Positions 1,863 through 57,218 of a stretch of DNA of 64,000 nucleotides are shown piece by piece. The stretch is taken from NCBI GenBank assembly GCA_009602725.1, contig WELB01000110.1, positions 388,799-452,798 on the forward strand, written 5' to 3'. This DNA is from Spirogloea muscicola (Eukaryota > Streptophyta > Zygnematophyceae > Spirogloeales > Spirogloeaceae). The notes under the pieces were generated by a model. The model was not told the origin of the DNA and did no database searches. It worked only from the letters and a program-made list of their open reading frames with translations. Position 1 is the stretch's first letter. Every line of letters begins with the position of its first letter. Both the position numbers and the translations under genes were made by a program.

Positions 1863-2215
1863 TGCTCGCCCATAGAGAAGAGGGGCTGGCAAAGCCAGCC
1901 CAAAAAAGAATGGACGATGTCCAAAGCCAAAGAAAGAGGAGCCGGAATAAGGACTACACTACAGAACACTGCAAAACACGTAGACGATGTAGAGGGAACC
2001 TCAGTACCCACGAGTGAGCAACATCAGGTCTGAGTAGCCGGCTGTTGCTCACTCGTGGGTACTGAGCTTCCCTGCATCGTCTCTGTGTTCTGCAGTGTTT
2101 TGTAGTGTAGTCCTTTTTCCGGCTCCTCTTTCTTTGGCTTTGGACATTGTCCATGCTTTTTTGGGCTGGCTTTGCCAGCCCCTCTTCTCTATGGGCGCGC
2201 ACTTCTTGCTGCAGG
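1863..2215. mobile_element. Head-to-head pair of LINE (family C) 3' ends forming a large inverted repeat
   Basis: Two copies of one LINE tail meet in opposite orientation. The minus copy spans about 1863-2033 and the plus copy about 2038-2210, around a spacer of roughly 20 nt near 2016-2037. Arms are about 170 bp and visibly more than 90 percent alike. Each arm contains, from the centre outward, the end of the LINE reading frame (LLLTRGY then stop), a 3' UTR with CTTTGGACATTGTCC, and the hairpin GGGCTGGC-TTT-GCCAGCCC (2163-2181 in the plus arm) followed by TCTTCTCTATGGGCG. No complete gene is present. Confidence 0.8.
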
Positions 2216-2400
2216 GAAAGAGGCACTCCGCCGAGACCCAGAGGCGCGGCCGGAAGACCCTCGCTGCTGACTCTCGCTCTGGCCAGGGGACCCGCTTCCG
2301 GGAACCCAGATTCTCTGACCTGAGGCTGCTAAGCAGGGGTTACCGAGTGCTTCGTAATTTCTCAGTTTCTTATTGTGCTCTTTTGTTTAGGCCAGTTTAC
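2200..2400 (+). mobile_element. LINE tail (family D)
   Basis: A short plus-strand LINE remnant. Around 2305-2335 one frame reads FSDLRLLSRGY, the family terminal signature, but the stop codon after GY is lost (CGA follows). Related tails lie near 6863, 13637 and 43005. The remaining sequence to about 2860 shows no gene and no clear repeat beyond two similar CGGYGCCGTTTGCCAC segments near 2630 and 2676. Confidence 0.55.
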
Positions 2401-2867
2401 ACCGGGACAGACGGACGCACGGAGGGGTACGTGTCGCGCGGTGTATGGAACGCCTGGCCTTTACAACCATACGCGCCCGGACGCGGACGCGCACCACGGA
2501 GGCGCCACATCGGGCGCTGACTAGGACGCCTTTTGCCCCCGCTAAAGGAAGCGGCTGCTGATATTAAAAGAGCGGCTGTGAAAGCCAGCCAGATGCATAC
2601 AGGTGTTCATGACGGCTAAGGAGGAAACGGTGCCGTTTGCCACATTTGTTGCTGAAGGGACCTCGCTTGAGAAAGAATCGGCGCCGTTTGCCACCAGAGC
2701 GCGCATCTTTCCTTACTGACGTGGAGCCGGGGGGGACATGGTTGCGACTCAATCACACTAAAGCAAATGTAATTCCACCTGTTATGTCCACGTATGCCTG
2801 CACGTCACCATTCTTGTCAGATTGACACAAACGGGCCACCGACGGGATATCTCATGACAGGCCCACG

Positions 2868-3480
2868 CTATGGCCGCCGCCTCTGGGTCTCGGCGGAGTG
2901 CCTCTTTCCCTGCAGCGAGCAGACTTGATGTTGCTCACTCGCGGGTACTGAGCTTCCCTCTGCATCGTTTTGTGTTTTGTAGTGTAGTCCTCTTCCGGCT
3001 CCTCTTTCTTTGGCTTTGGACATTGTCCATTCTTTCTGGGCTGGCTTTGCCAGCCCCTCTTCTTTATGGGCGAGCAATTTCTTTCTCTCTTCTAGTCCTT
3101 TGTTCATTCTTTTTTGGGCTGGCATTTCCAAGGGAAATTTCCAGCCTTTATCCTCAATGGGCGAGCCCTTCTTCTTTTGGGCCTCGTTCTTTCTGGGCTG
3201 GCTTTTACAGCCCTCGCCCCATTTGGATGAGCTCGCTTCTTCGTTGGAAGAGCTTACTTCTTCAGAGAGAAGAGAATGCTACTCAGGAAGAAAAACACAG
3301 CTCTTCCAAGAAGAATGGACAAGTTCCAAAGAGCCGCAAGGCGCGCCTACACCACACAGCTATGCACGAGACTACAGCGGAGGGGAGATTAAAAACCCCT
3401 GGTTAGCAGCAGCAAGTCGAACAGTTACAGCAATGGCTGTTACAGGCCAGCCCAAAGGAATGTACAAGGTCTAAAACGGC
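2868..3480 (+). mobile_element. LINE tail (family C) with a series of 3' UTR hairpins
   Basis: Starts with the C-terminal coding remnant of a restriction-like-endonuclease LINE, ending ADLMLLTRGY-stop at about 2966. The 3' UTR carries three successive hairpin modules: GGGCTGGCTTTGCCAGCCC at 3038-3056, a degenerate GGGCTGGCATTTCC module near 3117, and GGGCTGGCTTTTACAGCCC near 3208. Each is followed by a variant of the CYATTTGG/CTCTATGGG block. The upstream coding portion is missing (5' truncation). No intact frame. Confidence 0.75.
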
Positions 3481-3734
3481 CGGTTGCGCAAAAAGTAGGA
3501 TACTAAGTCTCTAAGACGTCAGCAAGTGGGCTCTCAATCACCTCTAGTTAGAAGAACCAGAGGGCAGAAAAGCGTCACCCTGACGGAACCGGGAGGCAGC
3601 AGCCAAGGCGCGGCCTGCACGCAAGTAGACTGGCAAATACTAAGGACCGCTGCAGGGAGATTGCAAGGCGCTTCCATGACACTTGAGCGACCCGGCGGCA
3701 TTGAAGCCGGGCTGCTCGCTCTGCTGATAGAAAG

Positions 3735-4240
3735 TGGCTCTTCACTCTTTCTTTGGCTTTGGACATTGTCCTTCCTTTTTGGGCTGGCTTTGCCAGCCCC
3801 TCTTCTCTATGGGCGAGCCCTTTCTTCAGGGGGACCCATTGCCCAGGGATGTCATCATCGCCGCACACTTGACATTGTGGGCGTGCAACCTGGTGGAGGA
3901 CCACAGGCCTCGGTCGATGTTGTTACGGAGGCCTATAAAGGGCCAGCATCGACTCACATCGCTGGCCACGCAGTGGGCAGTGCAGAACAAAGAAAGCTGC
4001 AGCACTACTCCGATTACCCCCAGTGCGATCAGCTCCTGCCAGCGGCAGTCGACATCTTTGGCTGCTTAGGTCCTCGTTTTCATACTCTCCTTCAAAACAT
4101 AGCCAATCTAGGCTACACACGATATGCAGATGTGCTCCCGGCTGAGATGGGCTTGCCAGCTGCATATCTGTCGTTCTTGCGACGACGAATTTCGGCCTGT
4201 TTGCAGCGTGTGTCGTGCAATGTCCCGTCGGTGGCTCATT
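3735..4240 (+). mobile_element. LINE fragment (family A), C-terminal endonuclease region, preceded by a family C hairpin
   Basis: A family C 3' UTR hairpin (GGGCTGGC-TTT-GCCAGCCC at 3781-3799) is joined to a family A coding fragment at about 3826. That fragment encodes the end of the restriction-like endonuclease: HHRRTLDIVGVQPGGG, SVDVVTEAYK (D..E.K-like catalytic block), RKLQHYSDYP and MGLPAAYLSFLRRR. It is a 5'-truncated, non-functional copy. The junction suggests one LINE inserted beside or into another. Confidence 0.8.
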
Positions 4241-5036
4241 TGCGTCGGTGCTGACAAAGGATGCGGAGGTGGCTGCTCATGTGGCGATCTGAGGGCACGT
4301 CATTCATCATTCTGGTGTAAAGATGGGGTCGCGAGTGCGGGGCCTTCCACCCGCTTGGTCATAAGTGGTGCTCGAGTTGTCGCCGAAGTACCACTTGGCG
4401 ACGTTCGAGTTCAATTGCGGCCCAACTCCCGTCTGATGCGGGGGGCATCACGCAATCGTTGCTCACGACCCGCCGTACGTGGGGCGCATTGCCCAATCGC
4501 TGCTCACATTCCGTCTGACGCGGGCGCACAACCCAAGCAGTCGCCCCAGTCCCGCCGGACGCGGGGAGCCCAACCCAATTAATTAGTCGTGACAGCCTGG
4601 TCACGGCGTGCAGGTATCATGCCGCCGATGTCAACTACTGACACCGATGAGCAGTGCCATCTTGCCACCCAGACCACACAAAGCCCCTAATCATAGACCG
4701 AGAGAGCTTATGAAAGCACGTCGAAGGTATGATTTGCCTCGATGAGCCGTGAGGAATCGGCTAGGCAGTGGTGGGGCAATGGTAGGTAGTGGTAGATGCG
4801 AGTCTTGGGCTACACTGGCCTTGAGACCTGGGGGACCAGATGGGCCAGATGGCCCACCCCAACAAACAATTTATTTCCTTTCTTTCTCTGACCAAGCATA
4901 AGGAAGGAAAGGCGCGCGGGGCGCATGAAATGAAAAGGGAGGCCAATTCAAGCCAATACACAGTTCAAGCAGAGGCGAGTGCAAACTAATCAAGGCTACA
5001 TGATACAGAGACCTAAATAAGGTGCCTAAGGTGACA
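4241..5036. other. Gene-free stretch with a tandem repeat of about 40 nt and the 3' UTR of the next LINE
   Basis: No gene recognised. At 4430-4582 about four degenerate units of 33-42 nt follow one another (each starts near CCGYCTGACGCGG or CCGCCGKACG and ends in a GCTCAC/CCCAA block). The segment 4900-5036 is the 3' UTR, in reverse, of the family B LINE that follows; it contains the reverse complement of TTCATTTCATGCGC at about 4914-4945. Confidence 0.6.
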
Positions 5037-6560
5037 TTAGTACCCACGGGAGAGCACAAACAAATCGGACAAGCTAACTTGGGGAGCTGGAGCGCCGCCA
5101 CGAAAGCCGGAGGCCTGACTTAGAGCGCGCCCTGCACGTTGATGAAGAGCCAATGCTTGCGAGCTCAGCAAACAAAGCGAGAGCCGCATTCTATAATATG
5201 CAATTAAGGCCTGTGGAATGCTGGAGTGGCCCAAGCTGCCCCCCCGACTTTTACGACGCGCATCGACCAGCCGGGCCAGATGCTGGATCAGGGAGGACCA
5301 TTTCACGCCGTAGCCGCGTAGATATCCATGGCACACGGGCAAAGATGGTCCCCTCGGGGATGGTCCTGGTAGTGCCGCTCCTTCTTGCGCTCCGCGCTGG
5401 ACGTGGCCCAGCCAGACACGGTTGACGTGGGTGCGCCAGCCTTGTATGCGTCGATCAGTACCACGTCCAGGAGCAGACGAGGCCCACCGCCCCGGGGGGT
5501 GGCGACCACGTCCAGACGCCACACGTATGGCTTGCCGCGCCTGAAGGAGATTGGCATGATGCCGGACACCTCCATCGCCGGATGATACCCCGCCTCTCGC
5601 AAAATTCCAAACATTGTATCCCTGAGTAAGTCGTGGGAGGCAATGCGCTCACCCCCCTCAGCACACCTCAGCATGTGCGCAGCTAGGGCGAGCTTGTCAT
5701 CGGCAATGTGGCCACACTCGCACTGGCGGATGCCAGCCAAGCAAGGGGGGGGGAGGCCGAGGTGGTGATGGAGCGCGGTACGAAACAGGTTGTCTGAAAG
5801 CCGAAGGGACTCGTATATCGGCAGAGCATTTAACCACTCCGACGCGCCTTGGGGAGCTGATGGAGAGGAGCCGGGTGAGGCCACGTCCATCGTCCTTGAG
5901 CAGTCCCTTTAATTCAGAGGCGGCCTGCACGTCCGCAGCGTGAGAGTAAAGGCCCTGCGCTTTCCTGTCAGAACAGCGTGCCCATGCCGCAAAATCTGCA
6001 TGACCCTCTGCAAGCGTTGGTAAGCAGCGCGAGAGGTCACGTAGTGCTGCGGTTAGAGAAAGCTGGAAGGGCAGGTTCCCTGTTGCAACACCCGCTATGG
6101 CGGGTGCTAAAACAGCCTGTCCCCTCAGGATGGAGCGACTGGAGATGGTGGAGGCCACTTGGGCCCAGCAACCCAGGTGAGCTGCTTGGGACAGGCGAGC
6201 CAATGGACGGCACCCAAGGCCGCCTTTACTGGTGGGTAAGGTATACTGTAGGATGGCCGCCGGCGTGGCGGATAGGTCGGGATGGTCCATCAGGCCATGA
6301 AGAGCCTGTTGGAGTCTGGAGTCCACGATAGAGTAGATGGCGTTTAGTGCAGTGGTGGGGGGCACAGTCCGCAACAGGTAAGTGGGACGCTGGGCCACAC
6401 ACCGGGTGAGGATGGCCACCGCAAGCTGCGCGTCCTGTAGGGAGGGGAGGGCCGGGAGGGACCGGAGATGGTTCTCAAGGGTGGACTCCACAACTTGCTC
6501 CACATGCGCAGCAGCCCCCAACGGGGCTCCAAGCACCACCATGCCGAGTCGTAGAGGCTG
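5037..6560 (-). mobile_element. LINE (family B), 5'-truncated: region after the reverse transcriptase plus restriction-like endonuclease
   Basis: Minus-strand LINE copy closely related to 40930-42442. It begins just after reverse transcriptase motif C (MVVLGAPLGAAAHVEQVVES), continues through the linker, the zinc-knuckle-like CECGHIADDKLALAAHMLRC (residues C, C, H, C), the endonuclease block LDVVATPRGGG...LLLDVVLIDAYK, and ends SLSDLFVLSRGY-stop at 5037. The reading frame is broken at least twice (near 5740 and 5330), so it is a pseudogene. Unlike the 41.9 kb copy it keeps the lysine codon in RRGKPYV. Confidence 0.85.
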
Positions 6561-6635
6561 TTTCGTTGCCTACTTCCGTGCTGATCTGACTTATCGACGT
6601 TATCTGGCAGCCGACACCCTGTGGCACGACACGTG

Positions 6636-6860
6636 CTCAGGCTAATGCTTTGCACCAGAAAGCTGGGCGAGCTCTAGTTGGTGGCAGAAGGGCTTCATAT
6701 CCGCCATCCAGTATTTAGGCATCAATTAGCGGCCTTCATGTTTTGACCCGTGGTTACTGAGCCAATCTGCTGTAGCTTATGTAGGTCTTAAGATGTGCTT
6801 GCCATTGTACTTGGCCGTTTGGTTTTTGTTTGTTTCAATACACAAACTTTTTTCCATTAC
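6636..6860 (+). mobile_element. LINE tail (family A) with its 3' UTR
   Basis: Plus-strand remnant encoding AQANALHQKAGRALVGGRR-like sequence and the terminal signature LHVLTRGY-stop near 6748-6760, followed by the family A 3' UTR (GCTTGCCATTGTACTTGGCC at about 6792-6830). It abuts the truncated 5' end of the minus-strand family B LINE, which suggests nested insertion. Confidence 0.75.
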
Positions 6861-6862
6861 CC

Positions 6863-7600
6863 GGAGACTAGTTTCTCTGACCTGCGGCTGCACAACAGGA
6901 TACATTGAGTACCCAGTGGCCATTTCAGTCGCAGTGTGCTTTAACGCTTTTCTCGGATCACCCGGTGGGAGACGAGGTTGTCTGACTCGCCGTTGACGTA
7001 CACGGCGCCTTTGGCGCAAGATGGCTTGACCTGCTTCACCTCCTTGCGCGGCGAGCAGCGGCCCGCCGCCACGGGCAGCAGGGCGAGCAGCCTGGCTTCA
7101 ATGTCGCTGGGTCCCTCGCCCAAGTCTTCCGGATGCGCTTGGCCATCTCTTTGCAGCGGTCCCTTGCCTTCGCGGTCCACTTGCGCGCAGGCCGCGCTTT
7201 GGCGGCGGCCTCCGGCTTGCTTCCGTCAGGGCGATGTCTTTCCGCCTGCTAGCTATTCAGAGTTGCATCTACTGACTAGAGGTTACTGAGAGTCCGCTTG
7301 CTGCTGTCTCCGTACTTGGCACTCCGGCTCCTTCAGGCCTTGGGCTGGCCTCTCCCAGCCACCAAATCTGGCCGCGCTTGCTGACTTTTCTGGCCCCTCC
7401 GAAGTTTGTTCATTCCTTTCCTAGGCTGGCCAATCACAGCCATCGCCCTTTCACTTCTTTAACGCTTTGCCTTCGCACTTCGTTCTTTCCTTTATCTCGG
7501 CTTGATTGGTCAGCCATCGCCCTATACTGAAAGAAGAAGTGGCACTCCCAATGGGAGCAAGGGCTGTGAAAAGCCAGCCCGAAAAGAATTACAAAGGTTC
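6863..7600 (+). mobile_element. LINE tails (families D and C) and 3' UTR hairpins
   Basis: At 6863-6905 a TSFSDLRLHNR tail (family D). At about 6945-7290 a family C fragment in broken frames: SDHPVGDEVV, AVDVHGAFGA, WLDLLHLLA, VFRMRLA, SLQRSLAFAVH and, at the end, SELHLLTRGY-stop (7258-7290). From 7320 to 7600 the 3' UTR holds GGGCTGGCCTCTCCCAGCC near 7341, AGGCTGGCCAATCACAGCC near 7424 and an inverted copy near 7557. No intact gene. Confidence 0.7.
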
Positions 7601-7639
7601 GAAGGGGCCAAATGATGGAGGGGCCTCGAAGCATACTGA

Positions 7640-7900
7640 AAACGGAATTTCGTGTATTTGAAACAAACGAAGGCCAAATGGCCAAGTGCAAAGGCAAGCA
7701 CATCTTAAGACCTACATAACCTACAGTAGATTGACCCGCTCAGAAACCACGGGTCAAAACATAAAGGTCGCACCGATGCCTGGATACTAGATGGTAGATA
7801 CGAAGCCCTTCTGCCACCAACTAGAGCTCGCCCAGCTTTCTGGTGCAAAGCATTAGCCTGAGCACGCTGCAAACAGGCCGAAACTCGTCGTCGCAACAAC
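7640..7900 (-). mobile_element. LINE tail (family A), reverse orientation
   Basis: The minus strand encodes RRRVSACLQRAQANALHQKAG (within 7705-7899) and ends in a degraded terminal signature near 7741-7790, followed by the family A 3' UTR whose palindrome GGCCAAATGGCC lies at about 7672-7685. Truncated and non-coding. Confidence 0.75.
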
Positions 7901-23060: not shown

Positions 23061-23930
23061 CTCCTATTGGGCTGGCATCTCACAGCCTTTGCCCATTGAC
23101 CTTGTCCTTTCTCTTCGGGCTGGCTTTTCACAGCCCTCGCCCCTTATAAATGATCTTGATCTCCGGCCCTTACTTTGGAAGAGCTGTGCCTTGTAACAGC
23201 CCCTCGTAGCCAAGGGCTTCACTTTGTATAGCCCCTTACTGATGCGCCATGGACATATCCAGCGGCTACGGAATGAAGTGGTCTTCCCTCCTCCATCGCC
23301 TGGCACTGCATGTCGATGCCCGCCGATGTAGTCGGGCTGGTAGGTTAGGGCATTCTAGCGTCCCGCAAGCCATTGTTGCATGCTATAGAATGCGGCTAAC
23401 TTTGAGTCTAAAGCGCTCCCAGGCACTCACGATACACCAGCGTGCTGGGCGTGCATTAGGCCAGGCTAATGGCCTTCATGGTGGTGGTTTTGCTCCTCAG
23501 CTTAGCTTGTCAGACATGCATGTGCTCACTCAGGGGTATTTAGTGTCCCCTTTAGCCAGGTCATTACCCCGTAAACAAGACATTTGTAAGGCTAGAATCT
23601 GCCCCCCTTTTGATATCATGCGCACCGCGCGCGTTCTCTCTTTGCACCAGTCCTTGCGATCTTCGCATCATTTCATCCTGAACAGCGTATGCCACCCTTG
23701 TCTTTCTTTCTACCTTAGCCACCTCAGCCGTAGGGCCTCGTACACATGTAGCCCCACTTTTCGCACTAGCTTTTGCCTGAAAGTGTATTGGCTTAGTTTG
23801 GCCGCCCTTCCCGTTTCATGCGCACCGCCCGCCCTCTAACTTCCTTTACCCATCCTACCCCAGTTCTGGATAGCGCACGTGGCCCCTTCGAACCTTGTCA
23901 ATTCTTTTCGGGCTGGCATACACACAGCCC
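23061..23930 (+). mobile_element. LINE tail (family B) flanked by hairpin-type 3' UTR pieces
   Basis: Hairpins GGGCTGGCATCTCACAGCC near 23070 and GGGCTGGCTTTTCACAGCC near 23122 precede a family B coding remnant at 23249-23542: MDISSGYGMKWSSLLHRLAL, MRLTLSLKRSQALTIHQRAG and SLSDMHVLTQGY followed by TTT (stop lost). Two copies of the family B 3' UTR motif ATGCGCACCGC lie near 23619 and 23819. Another hairpin (GGGCTGGCATACACACAGCC) is at about 23911. Confidence 0.8.
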
Positions 23931-34099: not shown

Positions 34100-34965
34100 T
34101 TGAAGCCAATAGATATACTTTTCGGGCCCCCGTTACCCCGTAACCAGGACCTTATGTAAGGCTAGAATTGGCCTCTCCTTTCAATTTCATGCGCACCGGA
34201 CCGCGCCTTCTCTCTCTCTCTCTCTCTCTCCTGGCAAAAAAGCTAGTGCAAGATTCGGGGCTTCACGGACCGAAGCACTGTGCTAAGGTGGCAAAAGTGG
34301 GGAAAGCGGGCGGGCCGATAGGGGGCGCGCGGCGCCACTGGCGAGCGGCGCGCCGAAAGGCCAAAGGCTCACGACGGCTCGTAGTACCGCGTGCTACGGC
34401 CGCTTCCTTTTTCCCGGGGGGGGGGGCTTTTGGACATTGTCCACTCTTTTTTGGGCTGGCTTTGCCAGCCCCTCGTCTCTATGGGCGAGCACGTTCTTCT
34501 TTTGGCAGCCCCCACCTACCCCCCCGCGCCGCGAGCGGGGCCCGCACTTGTGCCGTTCGATGCCATCCGGCGGCTTCTGCTGCGCCGCGTGGCACCCCCG
34601 CCCTCCGCGAGTCACGTGCGCGTACGGCAGCGGAGGCGCGGCCCGCCCACAGCGCCCGGACCGGGGAGCTCTCCGCCCAATCAATGCTCCCTCGACGTCA
34701 GCGGCCTGGCTTACCACCCCCGCTTGATCGTGGCCTCCCGCTGTACTTACTCATGGGCTGGCCGTATCCCAGCCACGGGGCTCCTCGTGAAAGACGATCT
34801 TCTCCACTTGCAACCGCTCCGAATGGGATGGAGTTTTATCGAGTGATGGAGGGCCTGAGTGGCCAAGTACAAAGGCAAGAAGCACATTGAACATGTACAT
34901 CAGCTGCTCATAAGCTGACCCGGTCAGTAACGACGATTCAGCACATAGAGGTTGCTAACTGGTGC
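34100..34965. mobile_element. Mosaic of LINE 3' UTR pieces
   Basis: Contains the family B 3' UTR motif (TTTCATGCGCACCGGACCGC near 34184), a TC dinucleotide run (34209-34230), the perfect family C hairpin GGGCTGGC-TTT-GCCAGCCC at 34453-34471 with CTCTATGGGCGAGC after it, a variant hairpin near 34760, a reversed family A 3' UTR (GGCCAAGTACAAAGGCAAG near 34861) and a reversed terminal signature (LYVLNRRY-stop on the minus strand near 34920-34960). Confidence 0.7.
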
Positions 34966-35214: not shown

Positions 35215-35625
35215 CTTGGCGGAGGAGGCGGGCTACGCCGTCCGCCAAGCGGCCGACGCAAAGGAGCGCAAGTACTCGGATCACCCGGTAGGCGACGAGT
35301 TTATCCCACCTCGCCGTCGACGTACACGGCGCCTTTGGCGCCAAATGGCTTGACCTACTTCACCGCCTTGCGCGACGAGCAGCGGCCTGCCGCCACGGGC
35401 AGCAGGGCGAGCAGCCAGGCTTGCATGTCGCCGGGTCCCTCGCCCAAGGTTTCTTTCAAGTTTTCCGGATGCGCCTGGCCGTCTCTTTGCAGCGGTCCCT
35501 AGCTTTTGCGGTCCACTTGCGCTCCGGAGGCCGCGCTCTGGCGGCGGCCTCCGGCTTCCGTCAGGGCGACGTCTTTCCGCCTGCTAGCTATTCAGATTTG
35601 CATCTACTGACGAGAGGTTACTGAG
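35215..35625 (+). mobile_element. LINE tail (family C), C-terminal domain
   Basis: Broken frames together encode EEAGYAVRQAADAKERKYSD, HPVGDEF, LAVDVHGAFGAKWLDLLHRL, VFRMRLAVSLQRSLAFAVHL, GRALAAASGFRQGDVFP and the terminal SDLHLLTRGY-stop at 35625. This is the best-preserved tail of family C. 5'-truncated. Confidence 0.85.
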
Positions 35626-36440
35626 AGTTCGCTTACTGCTGTCTCAGTCCTTAGCACTCCAACTCCTTCATGCCTTGTCCATTCTTTTGGGCTGGCCTCT
35701 CCCAGCCACCAGTTAATCTGGCCGCGCTTGCTTCTTCTTAATTCTGGGCTGGCTAACTTCGGCCTCCCTTTCATTTCATGTGCACCGCACGCCTTCTGCC
35801 TTTGTAGGCTGGCCCCGGCAGAATATAACTTCTCCATGGGCTGGCCTTTCACAACCATCGCCCCTTTTGAGAGAAGCTTTCTTCCCTCCTCCGCTTTCTG
35901 TAGTCCCATACAATGTCCTAGCTTTTGCCTGAAGTGTGCACTCGGCTTGATTTGGCTTCCCATTACACTTCATGCGCACCGCACGCCTAGTCTGTAATGA
36001 CTCTTTCATACAGCGACTTGCCAGGCATAGCCGACGCCAATGAAAGAAAGGTGGGCAGCCCGCCATCAATACCACTGGGTCGCTTGCTCAGGTACTCAGC
36101 ATGCGCCTTGCTCCAGCCTTCCCGGGCTTCTGCAGTGCTGTTGAGGGCAGGCCTCGCTTTGGCTGCTACTTCTAAGTCTCGCCATGGTGACGCTTTTCCG
36201 GCTGCCAGCTACTCTAGTGTGAGGCTGCTGGCTTGGGATTTAGAACACCCATTTGTGATAACCACATGCATACATGTGTGCTTTAGCAATTTCTGGCCGC
36301 TTTGGACCTTTTCCACTTCCGATTTGGGCTGGCCTTTCATAGCCATCCGTCCTTCTTGGGAAGGCTTTTGTTGGACCTTGTTCGTATGTACTGTGGGCTG
36401 GTGTTCCACAGCCTTGCCTCCTTCTGTAGACCTTCCTACG
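35626..36440 (+). mobile_element. LINE 3' UTR pieces and a further divergent tail (possible family E)
   Basis: Hairpins GGGCTGGCCTCTCCCAGCC near 35691, GGGCTGGCCTTTCACAACC near 35848 and GGGCTGGCCTTTCATAGCC near 36330. Family B-type motifs ATGTGCACCGCACGCC near 35778 and ATGCGCACCGCACGCC near 35971. At about 36040-36245 a coding remnant reads ALLQPSRASAVLLRAGLALA and ends YSSVRLLAWDL, a divergent form of the terminal signature. Confidence 0.65.
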
Positions 36441-37084: not shown

Positions 37085-37880
37085 ACATTGATAGCAGTGG
37101 CTGTGAGAGGCCGGTTTGGCGTGGCTGTGAGAGGCCGGTTTGGCGGCCCGGGGCATGGAGCGGAAGTACGCCGACCACCCTCCAGGCGATGAATTCGCGG
37201 CCCTGGCCATTGACGTTCACGGGGCTTTCGGCAGTGGCTGGTTGGATCTCCTCCAGCGGCTTGCCCTGCAGGCCATTGAGCGGCGGCCGGGTCTGCCAGG
37301 CTTCAATGCTGCGGGCTCCCTCGCCCAGGTATTTCGCATGAGGCTGGCGGTCTCGTTACAGCGCTCTGTGGCTCACACAGTCCTCAGGTGCCGGCAGAAT
37401 GTGCCGGCAGAGCCCTCGCTGCTGCCTCTTGCTCTGGCCCCTTAGTAGCTGCTTAGCGCTTGTTTAGGCACCTCCATGGCCCCCTTCGAACCTTTGTCAA
37501 TCCTTTTTCGGGCTGGCTTTTCACAGCCCTTGCCCCCATTGGGAGTGCCCCCTTCTTATCTGGCCAGGGGACCCACTTCCAGGAACCTAGCTTCTCTGAC
37601 CTGAGGCTTGCTTAGCAAGGGCTACTGAGTAATACGTAGCTACTTTGTTTCTTGTTGTGCTTGTTGTTCGTAGCGCTTCCCCCGGCCCCTTCTCGTCCTT
37701 GTTCATTCTTTTTTGGGCTGGCTTTTCCAGCCCCTATCCTCAATGGGCGAGCCCTTTCTTCTCATTTCTTCTCATGCGCGCTGGCCGCGCTAAGGCTGCT
37801 GCCTCAGGGTCTCGGCGGTGTTGCCTCGTGTCCAGCTTCGAGTTATTCTGACTTGCTGTTGCTCACTCGTGGAAACTGAG
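37085..37880 (+). mobile_element. LINE tails (families C and D) with 3' UTR hairpins
   Basis: A family C remnant at about 37140-37440 encodes MERKYADHPPGDEFAALAID, VHGAFGSGWLDLLQRLALQA and VFRMRLAVSLQRSV. The flank has a duplicated GGCTGTGAGAGGCCGGTTTGG (37099 and 37122, adjacent). Hairpins near 37510 and 37715. A family D tail (SFSDLRL) is near 37588 and a further tail ending SDLLLLTRGN-stop is at 37848-37879. Confidence 0.75.
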
Positions 37881-38300
37881 CATCCATCTGCATAGTTTCT
37901 TGTCCTGGTGTGTAGTTTTCCTTTTTGGCACCGTTTTGTGGCCTTTGAATATTGTCCATGCTTTTCTGGGCTGGCTTTGCTAGCCCCTCTTTCCGTATGG
38001 GCGAGCATTTCTCTCTCTGTTCTCTGGTACCGTATTCAGACTTGCATCTACTGACAATATGAGAAGTGCGCGCCCATAGAGAAGAGGGGCTGGCAAAGCC
38101 AGCCCAAAAAAGAATGGACAATGTCCAAAGCCAAAGAAAGAGGAGCCGGAAAAAGGACTACACTACAAAACACTGCAGAACACAGACGATGCAGAGGGAA
38201 GCTCAGTACCCACGAGTGAGCAACATCAGGTCTGAGTAGCTCGCTGCAGGGAAAGAGGCACTCCGCCGAGACCCAGAGGCGGCGGCCATAGCACGCGTGG
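37881..38300. mobile_element. Opposed LINE (family C) 3' ends
   Basis: Plus-oriented 3' UTR with GGGCTGGCTTTGCTAGCCCC near 37968, then a minus-oriented copy at about 38060-38290 nearly identical to 1863-2033: hairpin at about 38086-38104, then SDLMLLTRGY-stop on the minus strand (about 38205-38240) and ASGSRRSASFPAASY-type coding sequence. Confidence 0.75.
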
Positions 38301-38329: not shown

Positions 38330-41300
38330 AAATGCGCTCAATCTGGCCGCGCTTTCTTTGTTCTTTGGTACGCGCCGCACGAGAGTACGACTCGAGGAGA
38401 CGGGCCCACGCTGAGCAGGCCAACTTGGGCGGCACGCTGCATCTAGGCCCGGGGCCCCTTTCTGCCTCAATGGGCGAGACCTTTTGCTTTCTTGCCTTCA
38501 CCTCCCCCTTTCCGTTCTTGCCCGTTGGGCCCACCCACCCCCCCCCACCTCGGGCGCCCCACTCGATGCCGCGCCAGGCCCCGGGCCCCCCCCGGGCGCC
38601 TCGCCAGCTAACGAGCTTCCCCATCCACCCTCGCCTGGGCGGCAGTCCCCCGCGCCCGCGCCAGTGGCATCCGCCCCGCCCGTCGCTTCCCGCCCCACGA
38701 CGGCTGCCTCGGGCGTCCTTGGGCGCCCCGCTCCATGCCGCGCCAGGCCCCGAGGCCCCCCCGACCGTGGCGCAGCCCCTTCTGCCCCAGCTGCAGCCGA
38801 GCTCGTCCCCCTCCGTCAATACCCTCCCGCCCCGCCTCCCTCAGCAGCACCGCTGTCCGTCACACCGTAGCCAGCACGCCCTTGCACCCTGCCACTCATG
38901 CCGCCGCGTGTATGTTATTCTCCAGCGTGCGGCCGCCGCCTCCTCATCCGAAGCGGGCTTGCCCCAACAAGCTGCCACCCCGGGCCAGGAAGATTGCCCA
39001 CAGGGAGGGTGGAGTGGCAACCGTCGCCATTTGCCGGGGCGGAGACGGCCTGAGTACGAGCGAGCTGCGCACCCCCCCCTTCACATCCCCGCAAGTTCCC
39101 CCTGCTAGTGCTCCCACAGACTCAGACGTTACTACCGCTGCCGCTGCCGTCGCTGCTGCCGTTGCCGCTTCTGATGCCGCTACCGCTGATGTGGCTCTTT
39201 CAAGCAAAAGTGGTTCCAGTAGCAGGCGCAGGAGGGGTTGTCGGTCCCAGCCCCCCGATGGCTTCAGCCCTCCCGCCTCTCCTTCCTACTCCCGCCATGT
39301 CTGCAGCTGCAGCAGCTCCATCCACACGCCCTGCCACTACAGCTGTCCCCCAAACCTGCCAGTACTGCCAGCAGCCCTGGCCTAGCCTGCGGAGCGTTGG
39401 CATGCACGAGAGCCACTGTTCCAAGAAGGCCAATCGCGCCAAGCAGCAGACCCAAGCCCTCGCTGAGGCCGCTACCTGACGACGGCAGCCCGGCACCCCA
39501 GCCCCGGCGCCCCTTCCCCCAGCTCCCTCGCCGGCTCAGTGGCGTTGGGCAAGGCTCCTGGACCTAGATGCAGTCATGCTGGAACTCAGTCTGCCCACCT
39601 TGCGGCACATCCCCCACTGGGCACGGCCGCACATCCAGCGAGCCTCGCGGCCTATACTCACTTGTATGGCTCGGAACAGCTCCCACGAAGCTGCGTGGAC
39701 TGTCTGGCAGCTCCTCCCTCGCCTGGTCCTGGGACCCCTTCCAAGTGGTCCAAGCCATCGCGCGGTGATGCTAGCCAGGATTCAGCCATTTGAAGGCGGT
39801 GCATGGAAGCAGCTCCTGGAGGAGCTCGCGCAGCTGTCCGGGCGTCCCAGGCGAATCGGCCCACCCCAGCCACCTCAGAGGCTTCAGCTGTCCGCCGAGC
39901 CATTCGTTTTGGCTGCGCAGGGGACCTTTCCCGAGCTGCCCAAGCCCAGCCACCCCAGCACCTCACGACGCAGAGACCCTTGCTGCTCTCAGGACCCTCC
40001 ACCCCCCTGCCCCAAGCCCCCTACCCCCTGGCTCGAGGAGTTTCAGCCCCCGACCATGGTGGACCTCAACCCAGCAGCTCTTCCGACGACGCTGGTGCAG
40101 AGCCGGAAAGCAGCGGCTGGAGGGCCCTCGGGCATGCTCTTTGAACACCTTCGAGAGCTCTGGCTCGACGACGAGGCGGGTGACGTCAGTCTGCTGCACA
40201 AAGTGTGCCAAGCGGTGGCGCGCAGCCTCCTCCCACCCAAGGCCCGGGCGGCACTCACCAGCAGCACCCTGCTCGCTCTCTCCAAGCCCACCAGAGGCGT
40301 CCGACCAATTGCGATGGCCGAGGTCCTTACGCGACTGGTTTCAAAACCCTATTCCAGCAGAACAGAAAGGCGGCGCAGCTCCGCTTTTCTCCCCACCAGT
40401 TTAGCGCAGGGCTGTCTGCGGGCGCGGAGACAGTGGCTCATGGTCTCCGTGTTGCCCTGGACTGCAACCCCGATTGGATGGCCTTATCAGTGGACGTGAA
40501 GAATGCCTTTAACAGCGTTGACAGAGGGGTCATCGCCGAGGAGCTTGCGCATGCATACTCCCTCCCTCATCCCTTTCTTCCAGTGCTCCTACGGAGCTCC
40601 CTCCCGACTGCTCTGGGGAGCGGGCACGTCACAGGTGGTCTTGCAATCCAGCACAGGCACCCGGCAGGGAGACCCTTTGGGCGGGTTCCTCTTTGCATTG
40701 GCACACCTACGTGCGCTGCGTAATATGGCGGAGGCCCACCATGCCGTGCTAATCCCAAGCTACGTAGACAACACCACCCTGGTAGGACCCCCAACTGAAG
40801 TCACCAGCGCTTACAGCACGTTGGAGCGCGAGCTTCACACCCTCGGCCTCAACATCCGGCCAGAGAAGTGTTCAGCCTGGTCTCCAGCCGGCATCCCTCC
40901 CTACATCAAGCTGCCGGCTGGGTGTCAGACCCCACCACTCGGCATGGTGGTGCTTGGAGCCCCGTTGGGGCCTGCTGCGCATGTGGAGCAAGTTGTGGAG
41001 TCCACCCTTGAGAACCATCTCCAGACCCTCCCGGCCCTCCTTACAGGATGCGCAGCTTGCGGTGGCCATCCTCACTCGGTGTGTGGCCCAGCGTCCCACT
41101 TACCTGTTACGGACTGTGCCCCCCACTTCTGCACTAAATGCCATCTACTTTACCGTGGACTCCAGACTCCAACAGGCTCTTCACGGCCTGGTGGACCATC
41201 CCAGTCTATTCGCCACGCCAGCGGGCATCCTACAGTGTACCCTTCCTATTAGCAAAGGCGGTCTTGGGTGCCGTCCACTGGCTCGCCTGTCCCAAGCAGC

Positions 41301-42600
41301 TCACCTGGGTTGCTGGGCTCAAGTGGCCTCCACCATCTCCAGTTGCTTCATCCTGAGGGGCCAGGCTGTTTTAGCACCCGCCATAGCGGGTGTTGCAACA
41401 GGGAACCTGCTCTTCCAGCTTTCTCTAACCGCAGCACTGCGTGACCTCTTGCGCTCGTTACCAACACTTGCAGAGGGTCATGCAGATTTTGCGGCATGGG
41501 CACGCTGTTCCGACAAGAAAGCGCAGGCCCATTACACTCACGCTGCGGACGTGCAGGCCGCCTCCGAACTGAAGGAACTGGTCAAGGACGATGGACGTGG
41601 CCTTACCCGGCTTCTTTCCATCAGCTCCCCGGGCGCGTCTGAGTGGCTAAATGCTCTGCCGATATACAAGTCCCTTCGGCTTTCAGACAACCTGTTCCGT
41701 ACGGCGCTCCATCACCACCTCATCCCCCCCCCCCCTGCTTGGGTGGCATCCGCCGGTGCGAGTGTGGCCATATTGCCGATGACAAGCTCGCTCTAGCTGC
41801 GCACATGCTGAGGTGTGTTGAGGGGGGTGAGCGCATTGCCTCCCACCACTTACTCAGGGATACTAAGTTTAAAATTGTGCGAGAGGCGGGATATCATCCG
41901 GAGATGGAGGTGTCCGGCATCATGCCAATTTCCTCAAGGCGCGGCTAGCCATACGTGCGGCGTCTGGACGTGGTCGCCGCCCCCCGGGGCGGTGGGCCTC
42001 GTCTGCTCCTGGACGTGGTACTGATCGATGCATATAAGGCTGGCGCACCCACGTCAACCGTGTCTGGCTGGGCCACGTCCAGCGCGGAGCGCAAGAAGGA
42101 GCGGCACTACCAGGACCATCCCCGAGGGGACCATCTTCATCCGTGTGCCATGGATATCTACGGATGCTATGGCGTAAAATGGTCCTCCCTGATTCAGCAT
42201 CTGGCCCGGCTGGTTGATGGGCGTCGTCGAAGTCAGGGGGGCAGCTTGGGCCACTCCAGCATTCTCAGGCCTTAGTTGCATATCACAGAATGCGGCTCTC
42301 GCTTAGTTTGCAGCGCTGGCAAGCATTGGCTCTTCATCAACGTGCAGGGCGCGCTTTAAGTCAGGCCTCCGGCTTTCGTGGCGGCGCTCCAGCTCCCCAA
42401 GTTAGCTTGTCGAAATTGTTTATGCTCACTCGTGGGTACTAACGTCACCTTAGGCATCTCAGATTAGGTCTCTGTATTATGTAGCCTTGTTTAGTCTGCA
42501 CTAGGCTCTGCCTGAACACTGTATTGGCTTGAATTGGCCTCCCTTTCATTTCATGCGCTCCGCGCGCTTTCTCTCTCTTTATTACTTAGCTACACGAACG
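38330..42600 (+). mobile_element. Near-full-length RLE-type LINE retrotransposon (family B), mutated
   Basis: The only copy with all domains. 38332-39480: Pro/Ala/Ser-rich N-terminal region ending in a C2H2/CCHC-like finger (CQYCQQPWPSLRSVGMHESH, from 39358). About 40050-40900: reverse transcriptase with FPIAM-like GVRPIAMAEVLTRL, motif A LSVDVKNAFNSVDR (40484-40525), motif B STGTRQGDPLGGFLFAL and motif C SYVDNTTLVG (40758-40786). 40950-41740: linker (NHLQTLPALL, KGGLGCRPLARLSQAAHLGC). 41745-42080: zinc-knuckle CECGHIADDKLALAAHMLRC and endonuclease LDVVAAPRGGG, LLLDVVLIDAYK. The C-terminus is KLFMLTRGY-stop at 42442, then a 3' UTR with TTTCATTTCATGCGC near 42550. Frame shifts near 40310, 40645, 41045 and 41730 and a Lys-to-TAG change at 41946 make it a pseudogene. 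Architecture (finger, RT, restriction-like endonuclease) is that of R2/NeSL/HERO-type LINEs; the clade is not resolved. Confidence 0.85.
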
Positions 42601-43560
42601 GTGTAATGGAGTTACCGGTATCGTTTAGTAATCTCCAAGCAGCAGCTACAGACACAGTTATGTCAAGTCAGCGGCGCCGTTGGCACTCCCAAACAGAGCA
42701 AACGCACAGCAGCTCAGAAACATTATACAGAGAACGTCAGCACTCAGAGTTATCTTTGCTGAATGTCTCAACGACGTTCACCCTGCATTGAGTTGTAGAT
42801 GACAACAGCATCACCTTCTCTTTCATCGCCCTTCGGACCTCAACAGGGAAGGCGACAACAGTTGTAGGGCTGTCTTTCTACATAAAGCGGCTCTTCCAAA
42901 AGGCGCGAGGAAGTTTACAGCGGTCGCTCCCCTTCGGATGAGCATCTTCTCTGCCCATCCGTCAGCGTCCGCCCTATTCAAAAGACCTTGCTGGCCTCTC
43001 ACAGCAGACTAGTTTCTCCAACCTACGGCTGCTCAACAGGTGATATTGAGCATCCTTGGCCGCTTAGGTCGCTGTGTGCTTGAGCTCTTTTTGGCCACTT
43101 CGAAGCTTGTTCATTCATTTTCCTGGGCTGGCCAATCACAGCCATCGCCCTCTATTGGAAGAGTCTTTCTCTCACAGTGCATTCGGCCAGGCTGATGGCT
43201 TCCGTGGTGGTGGTCTGGCTCCTCAGCTTAGCTTGTCATTTGTGTATGTGCTCACACGAGGATATTAGTGCCCCCCTTAGCCTACTCATTACCACGTTAC
43301 TAGGACATATGTAAGGCTAGAATTGGCCTCCCTTTCAATTTCATGCGCACCGCGCGCCTTCTCTTACAGCATTGCCTGACATAAGTAGAGCTGTTTCTTT
43401 TCCCTCAAGAAGCTCCCAGCGTGGAGAGAGGGTGTGTGCATTCAGTGATGAGGGCCTGAGTGGCCCAAGTACACAGGCAAGCACATTGACAGATGTACAT
43501 CACCTGCTGCTAAAGCTGACCCGCTAAGTAACCACGAGTCAGCACGTAGAGGTCGCTAAG
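42601..43560. mobile_element. LINE tails in both orientations
   Basis: Plus: a family D tail (SFSNLRLLNR) near 43005-43045; hairpin GGGCTGGCCAATCACAGCC near 43129; a tail with ADGFRGGGLAPQLSLSFVYV and LTRGY-stop at 43268; family B 3' UTR motif TTTCATGCGCACCGCGCGCC near 43339. Minus: a family A 3' UTR (near 43455-43500) and terminal signature LSDLYVLTRGY at about 43525-43560. 42601-43000 shows no clear element. Confidence 0.65.
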
Positions 43561-43599
43561 TGATGCCAGAATATCGGACGCAATTGACAAGCCCTTGGG

Positions 43600-44700
43600 C
43601 CACCAGCCAAGGCTCGCCACCAGCCAAGGCTCGACCAGCTTTGAAGAGGTTCACGCCATTCTCTGCCCTCGCCCAAGCTTCTGATAGAGGGGCACAATCC
43701 AGACTGGTTACGGCAGTGGAAGACGAGCGCCGCAGAAGGTTGAGGAGGCTGCCAGAGATTCAGAAAAATTCAAGGAGCCTGGCAAGACTTACTTCTCTAG
43801 CCACACCTGGTGCCACCGACTGGATAACCTCACACGCCGTCGCCAACGCCTTCAGGATCAGCTCCGAGGCCTTTTGGACGTCGCTTCAACTCTTCCTCGG
43901 CCTCCCACCCAACTGCCTGATTGGGGTGCGCCAGTGTGAGTGCGGCTTCCGTGCAGAGGGTGCTGAGCTCGCCACTCACATGCTGAGATGCCCCACTGGA
44001 CCAGAAGTGGTGGGCATCCACAACCTCCTCGGCGATGCCCTGGCGGGCTTGATGCGCGACGCCGGCTACCGTGCGGTCGTGGAAGTCAACGACATCATGC
44101 CTATCACCACGGACGCCCAGGGACGTCATCATCGCCGCGCACTTGACGTTGTGGGCGTGCAACCTGGTGGTGGACCACGGGCCTTGGTCGATGTCGTTGT
44201 TGCGGAGGCGTATAAGAGTCCAGCATCGACACACATGGCTGGCCACGCAGTGGGCGGTGCAGAAGAAAGGAAGCTGCAGCACTACTCCGATTACCCCCAT
44301 GCGATCAGCTCCTGCCAGCGGCAGTCGACATCTTTGGCTGTCTGAGTCCTCGCTTCCACACTCTCCTTCTGATTGCCAATTTTGGTACACATGACGTGCA
44401 GACGTGTCCTGCTGAGATGGGCTTGCCAGCTGCATATCTGTCGTTCTTGCGACGACGAGTTTCGGCCTGTTTGCAGCGGGCTCAGGCTAATGCTTTGCAC
44501 CAGAAAGCTGGGCGAGCTTCAGTTGGTGGCAGAAGGGCTCCGTATCTGACATCTAGTGTTCAGGCATCGATTAGCGACCTTTTGTTTTGACCAGTGGTTA
44601 TTGAGCGGGTCAATCTGCTGTAGGTCATGTAAATCTTTAGATGTGCTTGCCTTTGTACTTGGCCATTTGGCCTTCGTTTGGTTCAATTACACAAAATTCT
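43600..44700 (+). mobile_element. LINE (family A), 5'-truncated, endonuclease region and 3' UTR
   Basis: Largest family A copy. Encodes RRRLRRLPEIQKNSRSLARL, SLQLFLGLPPNCLIGVRQCE, the knuckle CECGFRAEGAELATHMLRC, LMRDAGYRAVVEVNDIMPI, HHRRALDVVGVQPGGG, ALVDVVVAEAYK and RKLQHYSDYP. A one-base deletion near 44300 (relative to 3.9 kb and 55.8 kb copies) shifts the frame. The tail ALHQKAGRASVGGRRAPYL and ISDLLF follow at 44490-44590. The 3' UTR with palindrome GGCCATTTGGCC lies at about 44663-44674. It ends about 80 bp before the COG7 start. Confidence 0.85.
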
Positions 44701-50564: not shown

Positions 50565-54749
<4,185 letters not shown>

Positions 54750-55250
54750 GCTTCGCACAAAGTACTAAGGATTGTGGCAAGGACAAAGATTGCACGTGTG
54801 GCCCCCACGAAGAATGGCTGCCCAGGAGGTCCCTGCCTGGGCAAGCTGGCCTGGCTCGTGAAAGAGCACTCTCAAAGAGGACGTGGCTCGAGCGAGCGAG
54901 CAGCGATAAAAGGCAACCGCCTGGCGCTCGTGAATCTAGACAAGGCAGGAACGCGTCCCGAGCGGAATGCTGGGGCAACAGGCAGACTGGCGAGCCGGCC
55001 AGCTGGCCTGCAGCGCTGCCCTTGTGCTGCAGGGATCGTCATCTCCTGAGCGGCGAGATGCCTCGTCTCGGTGCCAGCGCGGGGCGCGCTGTGCGGCGCC
55101 GCAGCTGCATGGGCGCGCGGGCGCAGCGGAGCGCGGCGGCGGGCGAGGCTGCCGCTGGCGCGGGCGGGGCCGCCTCCTGGGATGGCGCGCGGGGTGAGGC
55201 CGCGGGGGGGGGTGGTGGGAAGCCTTTGGCGGGGCTGTCAAGAACAAAGT
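54750..55250. other. CDPK 5' flank, GC-rich toward 55000-55210
   Basis: No second gene seen. The open frames on both strands in the GC-rich part are compositional. Confidence 0.45.
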
Positions 55251-55700
55251 GCTCGCCCATAGAGAAGAGGGGCTGCCAAGAAATAACGGGGGCGGATTGG
55301 GGAAGTTGGGGCGAAACGGGCTGGAAGTTTGGCGGTCGCCAGGCGACCTCCGTGCGACGACACCCGGCGACTTCCCGGCCCGCGCGCACTATCCGACGGC
55401 GGCGCGCCGCTTCCAACCACTACATGCTTTTGGGCGTGGGTACTTCACGTCACACTGGTACTTTAGCCACTTTCCAGCCCCTATCCTCAATTGTTTTCGG
55501 GCTGGCTTCTCACAGCCCTTGCCCCCATTGGGAGAGCCACTTCTTCTTCTTTTTTTTCCGGCTCCTCTTTCTTTGGCTTTGGACATTGTCTATTTTTTTT
55601 GGGCTTGCTTTGCCAGCCCCTCTTCTCTATGGGCGCGCACTTCTTCTTCTTTAGCACAAGGCTCCATTTCATGTTGTCCCACCGTCTGCTTCTTGCCCGA
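55251..55700. mobile_element. LINE 3' UTR pieces in both orientations
   Basis: A reversed CTCGCCCATAGAGAAGAGG segment at about 55252 (hairpin mostly lost). Plus-oriented GGGCTGGCTTCTCACAGCC near 55499. CTTTCTTTGGCTTTGGACA near 55568, then GGGCTTGCTTTGCCAGCCC near 55600 with CTTCTCTATGGGCG after it (one mismatch in the hairpin stem). Confidence 0.7.
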
Positions 55701-55709
55701 GAAAACATT

Positions 55710-56240
55710 TCGTGTATTCGGAACAAACGAAGGCCAAATGGTCAAATACAAAGGCAAGCACATCTGACCTACATCGCTGGTCACGCAGTGGGCAGTGCAG
55801 AACAGAGAAAGCTGCAGCACTACTCCGATTACCCCCAATGCGATCAGCACCTGCCAGCTGCAGTCGACATCTTTGGCCTTTTAGGTCCTCGTTTCCACAC
55901 TCTCCTTCAAAATATTGCAAATCTAGGCTATGCACGACGTGCAGATGTGTTTCAGGCTGAGATGGGCCTGCCAGCTGCATACCTGCGTTCTTGCAACGAC
56001 GCGTTTCGGCTTGTTTGCAGCGTGCTCAGGCTAATGCTTTGTACCAGAAAGCTGGGCAAGCTCCAGTTGGTGGTAGAAGGGCTTCTATCTGCCATCTAGT
56101 ATTCAGGCATCGATTAGCGACCTTCATGTATTGACCCGTGCTTACTGAGCGGGTCAGATTGCTGTAGGTGATGTACGTCTCTAGACGTTCTTGCCTTTGT
56201 ACTTGGCCATTGGGCCTTCATTTGTATCAAATACACAACA
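55710..56240 (+). mobile_element. LINE (family A) tail with 3' UTR, next to a reversed family A 3' UTR
   Basis: A reversed family A 3' UTR (about 55715-55770) abuts a plus-strand coding remnant that starts at ITGHAVGSAEQRKLQHYSDY-like sequence (55772 on), continues FGLLGPRFHTLLQNIANLGY and MGLPAAYLRS, and ends ISDLHVLTRAY-stop near 56146. The plus 3' UTR follows, with GGCCATTGGGCC near 56205. Confidence 0.8.
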
Positions 56241-56284
56241 TTTCCGACAGCCGATTGGCCCAGAGAAAAGTACTGTTTCAATTC

Positions 56285-56740
56285 AATCACCCTTCCAGTT
56301 TGTGCGCACCGCGCGCCTTCTCTGTTTTCAGAGAGGTCTATATACCGGCTCTATGGCGCCTTCTGGCCCTTCTAGAGTATTTCGCATGCGGCTGTCGGTC
56401 TCGTTCCAGCGCTCTCAGGCTCACGCAGTCCACTCGCGAGCTGGCCGCTCTATAGCTGCTGCATTTGGGTTTAGGCGGAATGGTTTTTCCCGGACTCGGA
56501 CTTGCTGCTGCTCACTTGTGGGTACGAAGCTTCCCTCTGCGACGTCTCGTATTTCGCTGTGTAGTTTTTCTGTTCGGCACCTTCTTTGGCACTTCGGAAT
56601 TTTGTCCAATTTTTTTGGGCTGGCCTTTGCCAGCCCCTCTTCTTGACGGGCGGGCCATTTCTTTGGACCATTTCTTTTAGACCTTGCAAGCTACTCCGAC
56701 TTGCGGCTGCTTACTCGGGGTTACTTAATTCCGATCCGGT
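56285..56740 (+). mobile_element. LINE tails (family C)
   Basis: Family B-type motif GTGCGCACCGCGCGCC near 56299. A coding remnant VFRMRLSVSFQRSQAHAVHS and AGRSIAAAFGFRR at about 56370-56500, with a decayed signature (DLLLLTCGY). Hairpin GGGCTGGCCTTTGCCAGCCC at 56617-56636. A second tail YSDLRLLTRGY near 56692-56725. Confidence 0.7.
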
Positions 56741-57218
56741 GCAGTCTCTTGCATGGTAGCATAATAAGAAAAATGTTGCTCTCACAAAGGGGCTGTGATA
56801 GCCTGACAAGGTCCAAAGGGCCCAAAGCCGCTTTCTCAAAGCTTTTCCAGTAGAATAGAGAACAGCGCTTCCAAATGACTGGTGGCTGTGAGAGGCCAGC
56901 CCACAAGAATGAACAAGGTCTGGGTTCGGTAGGATAAGGACATATTATAGCTGTGTAATGTTGGCGCCTTTCGGCCCTTTGGACCTTGTTCAGTCTTTTT
57001 GGGTTGACCTCTCACAGCCACTGCCGTACTAAATTGGAAGAGCTTTTCATTTCTTAATCTGATTTGAGAATTGAACAATTTTATGAGCTGGCCAATTGCA
57101 GCCATCGCCCTCTCCTTTAATAAGTTATTCGTGTATTTGAAACACCCAAAGGCCAAATAGCCAAGTACAACGGCAAGCACATCTGGAGACGTACATCACC
57201 TACAGCAATCTGACCCGC
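56741..57218. mobile_element. LINE 3' UTR remnants
   Basis: Reversed hairpin GGCTGTGAGAGGCCAGCCC near 56884; plus-oriented variants near 57000 and 57084; reversed family A 3' UTR (GGCCAAATAGCCAAGTACAA near 57152), which belongs to the next element. Confidence 0.6.

Follow-up and report, generated by a model that had tools for sequence, protein, structure and literature searches.

Hairpins with a shared core stem in the 3' untranslated regions of LINE-like elements of Spirogloea muscicola

We analyzed a stretch of 64,000 nucleotides of the Spirogloea muscicola genome (contig WELB01000110.1, here C110, positions 388799-452798; the genome comprises 153.1 Mb in 471 contigs), hereafter the window, in which the remains of long interspersed nuclear element (LINE)-like elements of several families end in short 3' untranslated regions (UTRs) carrying hairpins. 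These hairpins are real and occur above chance frequency, and a GGCTG/CAGCC core is common to six types of tail (C, D, E, F, G, and H), the loop and the surrounding sequence of which differ by type. Families A and B carry hairpins of other sequence, and in family A, a further hairpin spans the stop codon. The features of the window are as follows, each with the basis of its assignment.

1883-1901, minus strand: C-type hairpin, GGGCTGGC-TTT-GCCAGCCC, exact match, inside C tail 1856-2021
2163-2181, plus strand: C-type hairpin, exact match, inside C tail 2045-2204
3038-3056, plus strand: C-type hairpin, exact match, inside C tail 2931-3085
3116-3146, plus strand: F-type hairpin with a palindrome inserted in the loop, inside F tail 3089-3175
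3195-3213, plus strand: G-like hairpin, GGGCTGGCTTTTACAGCCC, inside G-type tail 3190-3240
3781-3799, plus strand: C-type hairpin, exact match, inside C tail 3745-3826
7672-7683, minus strand: family A tail hairpin, GGCC-ATTT-GGCC, exact match
7731-7757, minus strand: family A stop-codon-spanning hairpin, from sequence and family-level pairing counts
23618-23632, plus strand: family B tail motif, GCGC-ACC-GCGC, with a 4-bp stem, exact match
34453-34471, plus strand: C-type hairpin, exact match, inside C tail 34429-34498
35586-35750, plus strand: D-type tail with GGCTGG-CCTCTC-CCAGCC and then CCAG-TTAAT-CTGG, from tail similarity and folding
37715-37733, plus strand: F-type hairpin, GGGCTGG-CTTTT-CCAGCCC, inside F tail 37571-37765
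37968-37986, plus strand: C-type hairpin variant with one G-U pair, from motif match and tail similarity
38087-38105, minus strand: C-type hairpin, exact match, inside C tail 38064-38223
39480-42442, plus strand: decayed family B LINE open reading frame (ORF) in several frames, with a reverse transcriptase in 40500-41252 and its stop codon located
42553-42567, plus strand: family B tail motif with one mismatch, 3' of the B ORF ending at 42442
43343-43357, plus strand: family B tail motif, exact match
43560-44590, plus strand: C-terminal part of the ORF of a decayed family A LINE, from sequence match
44587-44613, plus strand: family A stop-codon-spanning hairpin, one pair broken in this copy, from family-level pairing counts
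44661-44672, plus strand: family A tail hairpin, GGCC-ATTT-GGCC, exact match
55601-55619, plus strand: C-type hairpin with one mismatch, from motif match and tail similarity
56131-56157, plus strand: family A stop-codon-spanning hairpin, from sequence and family-level pairing counts
56205-56216, plus strand: family A tail hairpin with one mismatch, from motif match
56617-56636, plus strand: C-type hairpin with a 4-nt loop, from tail similarity
57151-57162, minus strand: family A tail hairpin with one mismatch, from motif match
57210-57237, minus strand: family A stop-codon-spanning hairpin, from family-level pairing counts

The exact C hairpin, GGGCTGGCTTTGCCAGCCC, is thus present at six sites, with those at 2163, 3038, 3781, and 34453 on the plus strand and those at 38087-38105 and 1883-1901 on the minus strand. 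An earlier note on this DNA had named five of them, and an exact match lies at each (the one it placed near 38086 being the minus-strand copy at 38087-38105); the copy at 1883-1901 is new. The family A motif, GGCCATTTGGCC, is exact at 44661 (plus) and 7672 (minus) and has one mismatch at 55732 (minus), 56205 (plus), and 57151 (minus), and the family B motif, ATGCGCACCGCGCGC, is exact at 43343 and 23618 and has one mismatch at 42553, 56302, and 4912 (minus). All of these were found where the note had put them, the exact B copy at 23618 being an addition. An Rfam scan of the window returned no family reaching its gathering score.

The placement of the hairpins in LINE 3' UTRs, which the note had proposed, was confirmed: the UTRs that carry them directly follow ORFs ending in [T/S]RGY and a stop codon. 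This ending, used as a search pattern and therefore built into the result, gave 84 distinct matches, of which the 45 with the longest upstream frames were translated, and among the matches listed it linked tails to five ORF types, whose last residues before the stop are SDLYVLTRGY (A), SDLFVLTRGY or LSRGY (B), SDLMLLTRGY (C), SDLHLLTRGY (D), and SDFLLLTRGY (E). The family F ORF probably ends in SDLRLLSRGY, as read by eye in sequence L023, and types G and H are recognized from tail sequence alone. The 3' UTRs are about 100 to 170 nt long and contain one or more hairpins, the last of which lies within about 30 nt of the 3' end. As to the enzyme, an intact A-type copy (sequence L070, 848-4651) encodes a single ORF of 1,267 aa with an RVT_1 domain above the cutoff (E = 1e-18), the PDB matches of which include R2 (9nl2; E = 7e-4) and also group II and L1 enzymes, together with a weak zf-C2HC_2 match at residues 244 to 267 (E = 4e-4; 20.5 bits versus a cutoff of 27). 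In the decayed family B ORF of the window, the RVT_1 match in 40500-41252 (E = 1.4e-6; 28.6 bits) falls slightly under the curated cutoff of 29.6. No APE endonuclease domain was among the Pfam matches up to an E value of 1 in the 1,267-aa ORF, the one full ORF scanned. Behind the reverse transcriptase lies a conserved CCHC-like stretch, whose spacing, read from the alignment as CX1CX11-12HX3C, does not match the CX2-3CX7-8HX4C reported for the gag-like CCHC knuckle (PMC5678591). The C-terminal part has a conserved LDV..DVV..KxRxYxDxP-like pattern that, by eye, resembles a restriction-like endonuclease; a PDB profile search with this domain recovered no relative, only a chance-level match to a designed protein (E = 9). 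Nor was a single insertion site, such as the 28S rDNA site of the R2 clade, seen by eye among the copies listed, in which the DNA 3' of the tail end (types C, F, G, and B) varies among copies (rDNA was not searched for). The note had implied R2-type enzymes; because the knuckle spacing differs and the C-terminal search found no relative, we describe these elements as working like R2 rather than as being R2.

Several side observations concern these ORFs. The last codons of family F (window 37600-37640) hold CTTGC-TTA-GCAAG, a small coding palindrome just 5' of the stop codon, and in the stop region of family C (e.g., window 2931-2955), GCTCA..TGAGC could pair across the stop codon over 5 bp. 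LINE C-terminal matches also occur in open frames of 4,757 aa (contig C88, 74161-74700) and 4,349 aa (contig C234, 152068-152526), lengths that may be inflated, as runs of N were shown to do in sequence L069. Apart from the LINEs, the genome has 68 matches of the chlorophyll a/b-binding family PF00504, which places the host in the photosynthetic green lineage, and an LHCII exon strongly matches plant-type LHCII chains in the PDB, with land-plant chains ranking ahead of those of Chlamydomonas.

To set the hairpins against chance, perfect stems of at least 7 bp with loops of 3 to 8 nt were counted and compared with dinucleotide shuffles. The tail DNA of the window, which comprises 59 segments resembling one or another of eleven tail pieces used as queries (6,102 bases including margins), contains 8 such hairpins versus a shuffled mean of 1.02 and a maximum of 5 in 50 runs, while the remaining 57,535 bases contain 36 versus a shuffled mean of 30.4 (5 runs). 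Hairpins of this quality are therefore special to the LINE tails, and the equal frequency outside LINE DNA that the earlier note had specified as evidence against its proposal was not observed. All 8 are of C or F type, so the test is uninformative for families A and B, whose stems are too short to be counted. The tails are also abundant across the genome: exact C hairpins number 1,721, and patterns in which the hairpin itself was left free recovered 1,885 C, 1,435 F, 993 G, and 2,075 A tails, with 0, 0, 0, and 3 hits, respectively, for the reversed patterns.

Comparison of the types shows where they agree and where they differ. The hairpin is GGGCTGGC-TTT-GCCAGCCC in type C, GGGCTGG-CTTTT-CCAGCCC or the same stem around CTTGT in type F, GGGCTG-GCTTCTCA-CAGCCC in type G, GGCTGG-CCTCTC-CCAGCC in type D, GGCTG-GCCAATCA-CAGCC in type H, and GGCTG-GCTTTCA-CAGCC in type E. 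Since GGCTG/CAGCC recurs in all six, the main stem is common property rather than private to one sublineage, and the note's idea that each sublineage has a hairpin of its own did not hold up; only the loops and flanks are type specific. Family A has, beside the hairpin at the stop codon, a probable second hairpin of 7 bp (see below) and the short GGCC hairpin, and family B has the GCGC hairpin, with UGAAUUG/CAAUUCA additionally predicted in one folded copy. Within type C, 97 tails could be typed from 100 listed and 96 were scored. Three variants keep the inner stem through G-U pairs, namely, GCTGGCCC (11 copies; two G-U), GCTAGCCC (5 copies; one G-U), and GGGTTGGC (4 copies; one G-U). Thus, among variants in at least four copies, all four inner stem changes still pair, although two may be one event, and inner changes spread by a source element therefore kept pairing, on small numbers.

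In all seven tails examined by folding, the inner hairpin is steadier than shuffles of its own composition (uncorrected, 0/2000 for C, C2, and F, 0.001 for G, 0.0095 for E, 0.014 for D, and 0.024 for H). When whole UTRs of 13 tails were folded, the lower z scores were those of C2 (-3.8), C (-3.3), A2 (-2.9), B1 (-2.2), F (-1.9), A1 (-1.5), D (-1.2), and B1b (-1.1). Pairing from flank to flank exceeds that of shuffled flanks in F (0/3000), C2 (0.0097), and C (0.049), and from these folds, a putative outer stem is retained for F and C2 only, C being borderline. An outer stem common to C, F, and G, formed by a 5' box and a GGGCGAG box 3' of the inner hairpin, was considered and rejected: a structure-blind alignment gave it no covariation, and the G flanks pair no better than shuffled ones. 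Two both-sided changes in the G outer stem were dropped, their register having been set post hoc.

The hairpin spanning the stop codon of family A, absent from the earlier note, has an 11-nt loop that contains the stop codon and arms UUGACCCG / CGGGUCAA in clade A1 and CUGACUCG / CGGGUCAG in clade A2. In 43 hand-picked rows, 88.9% of the cells are paired, and 5 of the 9 pairs show changes on both sides, in 19 cells; the observed paired cells, pairs, and both-sided cells were matched by 0, 2, and 0 of 500 shuffles, and slid versions reached at most 43% pairing and 3 pairs. Because these rows had been hand-picked, the test was redone by rule on all 100 listed rows, leaving 41 distinct in-register rows (unfiltered, the out-of-register rows inflate the counts to 9 pairs and 28 cells). 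In this set, 329 of 369 cells are paired versus 316.9 in shuffles (0/5000), with 5 both-sided pairs (30/5000) and 21 both-sided cells (0/5000). RNAalifold recovers the hairpin unaided, with 3 of its 8 pairs changed on both sides. The 5' arm is coding, and the A1-to-A2 changes in it are synonymous (TTG to CTG and ACC to ACT), the UTR arm following them; single copies such as CCAG/CTGG add to the signal. The second family A hairpin, GUACAUU / AAUGUGC, probably exists, judging from an exploratory set of 39 rows chosen by eye with 11 both-sided cells versus 4.4 in shuffles (0/500).

We think it probable that the hairpins are template-recognition elements of LINEs of the stringent type. The ORF protein would dock on the common stem, it would read the loop and neighboring sequence for specificity, and target-primed reverse transcription would begin at the nearby 3' end, the cDNA starting from the terminal run; 5'-truncated copies would retain their tail because copying starts at the 3' end. 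The position and abundance of the tails, the constancy of the stem, and the family A change are observed; binding, specificity, and start site are modeled here on R2 (PMC12222951 and PMC4117753) and zebrafish L2 (PMC4176376), in which the element's own enzyme recognizes 3' UTR structure. The lineage-specific recognition elements that the earlier note envisaged are retained in part: the tails lie behind LINE ORFs, and loops vary while stems stay (of 100 A tails listed, 84 have an unbroken GGCC/GGCC stem, with 15 loops of 2 to 6 nt), but the main stem, common to six tail types, is not lineage specific.

A number of results weigh against a recognition role. When 57 C, F, and G tails were aligned without regard to structure, pairing in the inner and proposed outer stems was 82.6% versus 82.4% in shuffles (162/500), though it falls to 56% or less if the arms are slid; pairs with both-sided change did not exceed shuffles (248/500), and none of the seven pairs predicted by RNAalifold was changed on both sides. 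Within clade A1 (27 rows, including one with an insertion), 147, 35, and 2,825 of 5,000 shuffles reach the observed paired cells, pairs, and both-sided cells, a weak signal, and within A2 (14 rows), there is no covariation signal (1,499, 1,002, and 1,002 of 5,000). A separate A1/A2 split of the family A rows was also weak, and the family A signal is therefore mostly one coordinated A1/A2 change of two neighboring pairs. The covariance analysis that the earlier note had proposed thus gave a divided outcome, with covariation across the family A stop hairpin but none above shuffles in the C, F, and G tails. In the second A hairpin, the 2 pairs with both-sided change are ordinary for shuffles (402/500). 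Among the stem variants, AGCC (4 copies) and GACC (2 copies), the only A-tail variants in more than one copy, break a pair, GCCAGCCA (9 copies) and TGGC-TTCT (8 copies) lose the outermost C pair, and the two-copy GCCAGCAC and nine single-copy C variants break an inner pair. The A and B tail stems have just 4 bp, the flanks of G, D, H, and E pair no better than shuffled flanks, and the whole-UTR z score is not low for B2 (-0.6), D2 (-0.3), H (+0.2), G (+0.3), and E (+1.2).

The lack of covariation in the C, F, and G tails and the weak or absent signal within the family A clades would suit stems that are inherited sequence, a GC-rich palindrome shared by young, related lineages through descent without selection on pairing, as would the near identity of most listed copies within a lineage. 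Such passive inheritance does not, however, lead one to expect loops altered in length and sequence beside unchanged stems, inner C stem changes that repeatedly still pair, or a stop-codon hairpin that changed in concert between A1 and A2, and we judge it unlikely.

The tail ends bear on a different alternative. Of 199 ends of C, F, G, or B type, 158 have a pyrimidine run of at least 6 behind their end motif, versus 95 of 3,000 random positions, and the 3' end in these tails is therefore a CTT-type run. The tails end in this run, and not in poly(A), a few tens of nucleotides past the hairpin, as they might if the hairpin were a signal for 3'-end formation or stability of non-poly(A) transcripts, comparable to that of histone mRNAs, with an enzyme requiring the 3'-terminal sequence only. 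The A and B hairpins would not be expected to differ if a single host machinery read them, though, and non-A end repeats are usual in green-alga LINEs (PMC3747384); we regard this explanation as quite improbable.

The same ends delimit tails that lie in rows. At 2931-3240, three 5'-truncated tails stand head to tail (C, 2931-3085; F, 3089-3175; and G, 3190-3240), and each ends in a CTTTCTTC-like run. The note had described several tails as having two or three consecutive hairpins (3038, 3117, and 3208), which is true of the DNA, but they belong to three separate tails of different type and not to one; nested insertion of truncated copies would explain the row. In the 80 bases directly behind 199 tails, a same-orientation tail was found in 44 cases, an opposite one in 21, and neither in 134, a modest bias that is gone at 90 bases or more beyond the tail; at 1,000 random positions, the corresponding counts are 99, 79, and 822. 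It would fit nested insertion as in Zepp and Zepp-like LINEs, the 5'-truncated copies of which are nested head to tail (PMC8226300). Other arrangements also occur, with a divergent pair of C tails in the window (1856-2021, minus, and 2045-2204, plus) and a convergent pair elsewhere, its two C tails separated by about 180 bp (contig C143, 60193-60605).

Two single copies have new perfect palindromes that look like products of fold-back, one in the loop of the F hairpin at 3116-3146 and the other, a doubled palindrome, near 1620 in a C copy in sequence L027. They could suggest that the hairpins in general arose by fold-back or template switching in reverse transcription and persist passively. 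With just two such copies noted, against a common stem old enough to span six tail types, this origin appears very improbable.

If template recognition is correct, the genome would be a natural library of LINE enzyme/tail pairs, with thousands of copies and six or more tail types that share a stem, beside which A and B would represent two further tail designs. Changes in enzyme residues could then be matched to changes of the loop, and one could ask if a lineage is able to copy another's tails. In the family A stop-codon hairpin, the coding sequence and the 3' UTR would have evolved jointly. A bolder proposal, decidedly unlikely as it stands, is that a LINE radiation within one genome keeps the docking stem and swaps loops for self-recognition, while terminating ribosomes open and close the family A hairpin, so coupling translation to template binding; such coupling would provide a physical basis for cis preference.

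No published description of this hairpin set was found in the literature, as far as titles and the openings of abstracts show; the phenomenon itself is already known, and the present set is a new, rich instance of it. One close parallel is R2, a single-ORF LINE with a short structured 3' element that its own protein binds to begin target-primed reverse transcription (PMC12222951 and PMC4117753). This element comprises two hairpins in R2Bm and the last 67 nt, with a pseudoknot, in R2Tg (PMC12222951), whereas here one core hairpin is shared and the loops are type specific; unlike the R2 clade, the present elements are scattered, with no single site. ZfL2-1 and ZfL2-2 of zebrafish and UnaL2 of eel offer related LINEs with cognate stem-loops, within one genome, and the zebrafish enzyme reads the stem generally and the loop specifically (PMC4176376). 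Those are L2-clade elements, whereas the Pfam scan of a single full ORF found no APE-type endonuclease here, and the stem sequence itself is common to six tail types. In the green lineage, plant L1 elements have a conserved 3'-terminal stem-loop with compensatory changes, described by Ohshima (PMC3747384). In that L1 clade, the stem letters vary and the loop and flank letters are conserved, while in the present tails, the stem letters are constant, the loops vary, and the ends are of CTT type. Finally, Zepp, which shares the nesting of truncated copies, is an L1 with a poly(A) end (PMC3747384), and the same-orientation bias seen here is modest (44 versus 21 of 199).

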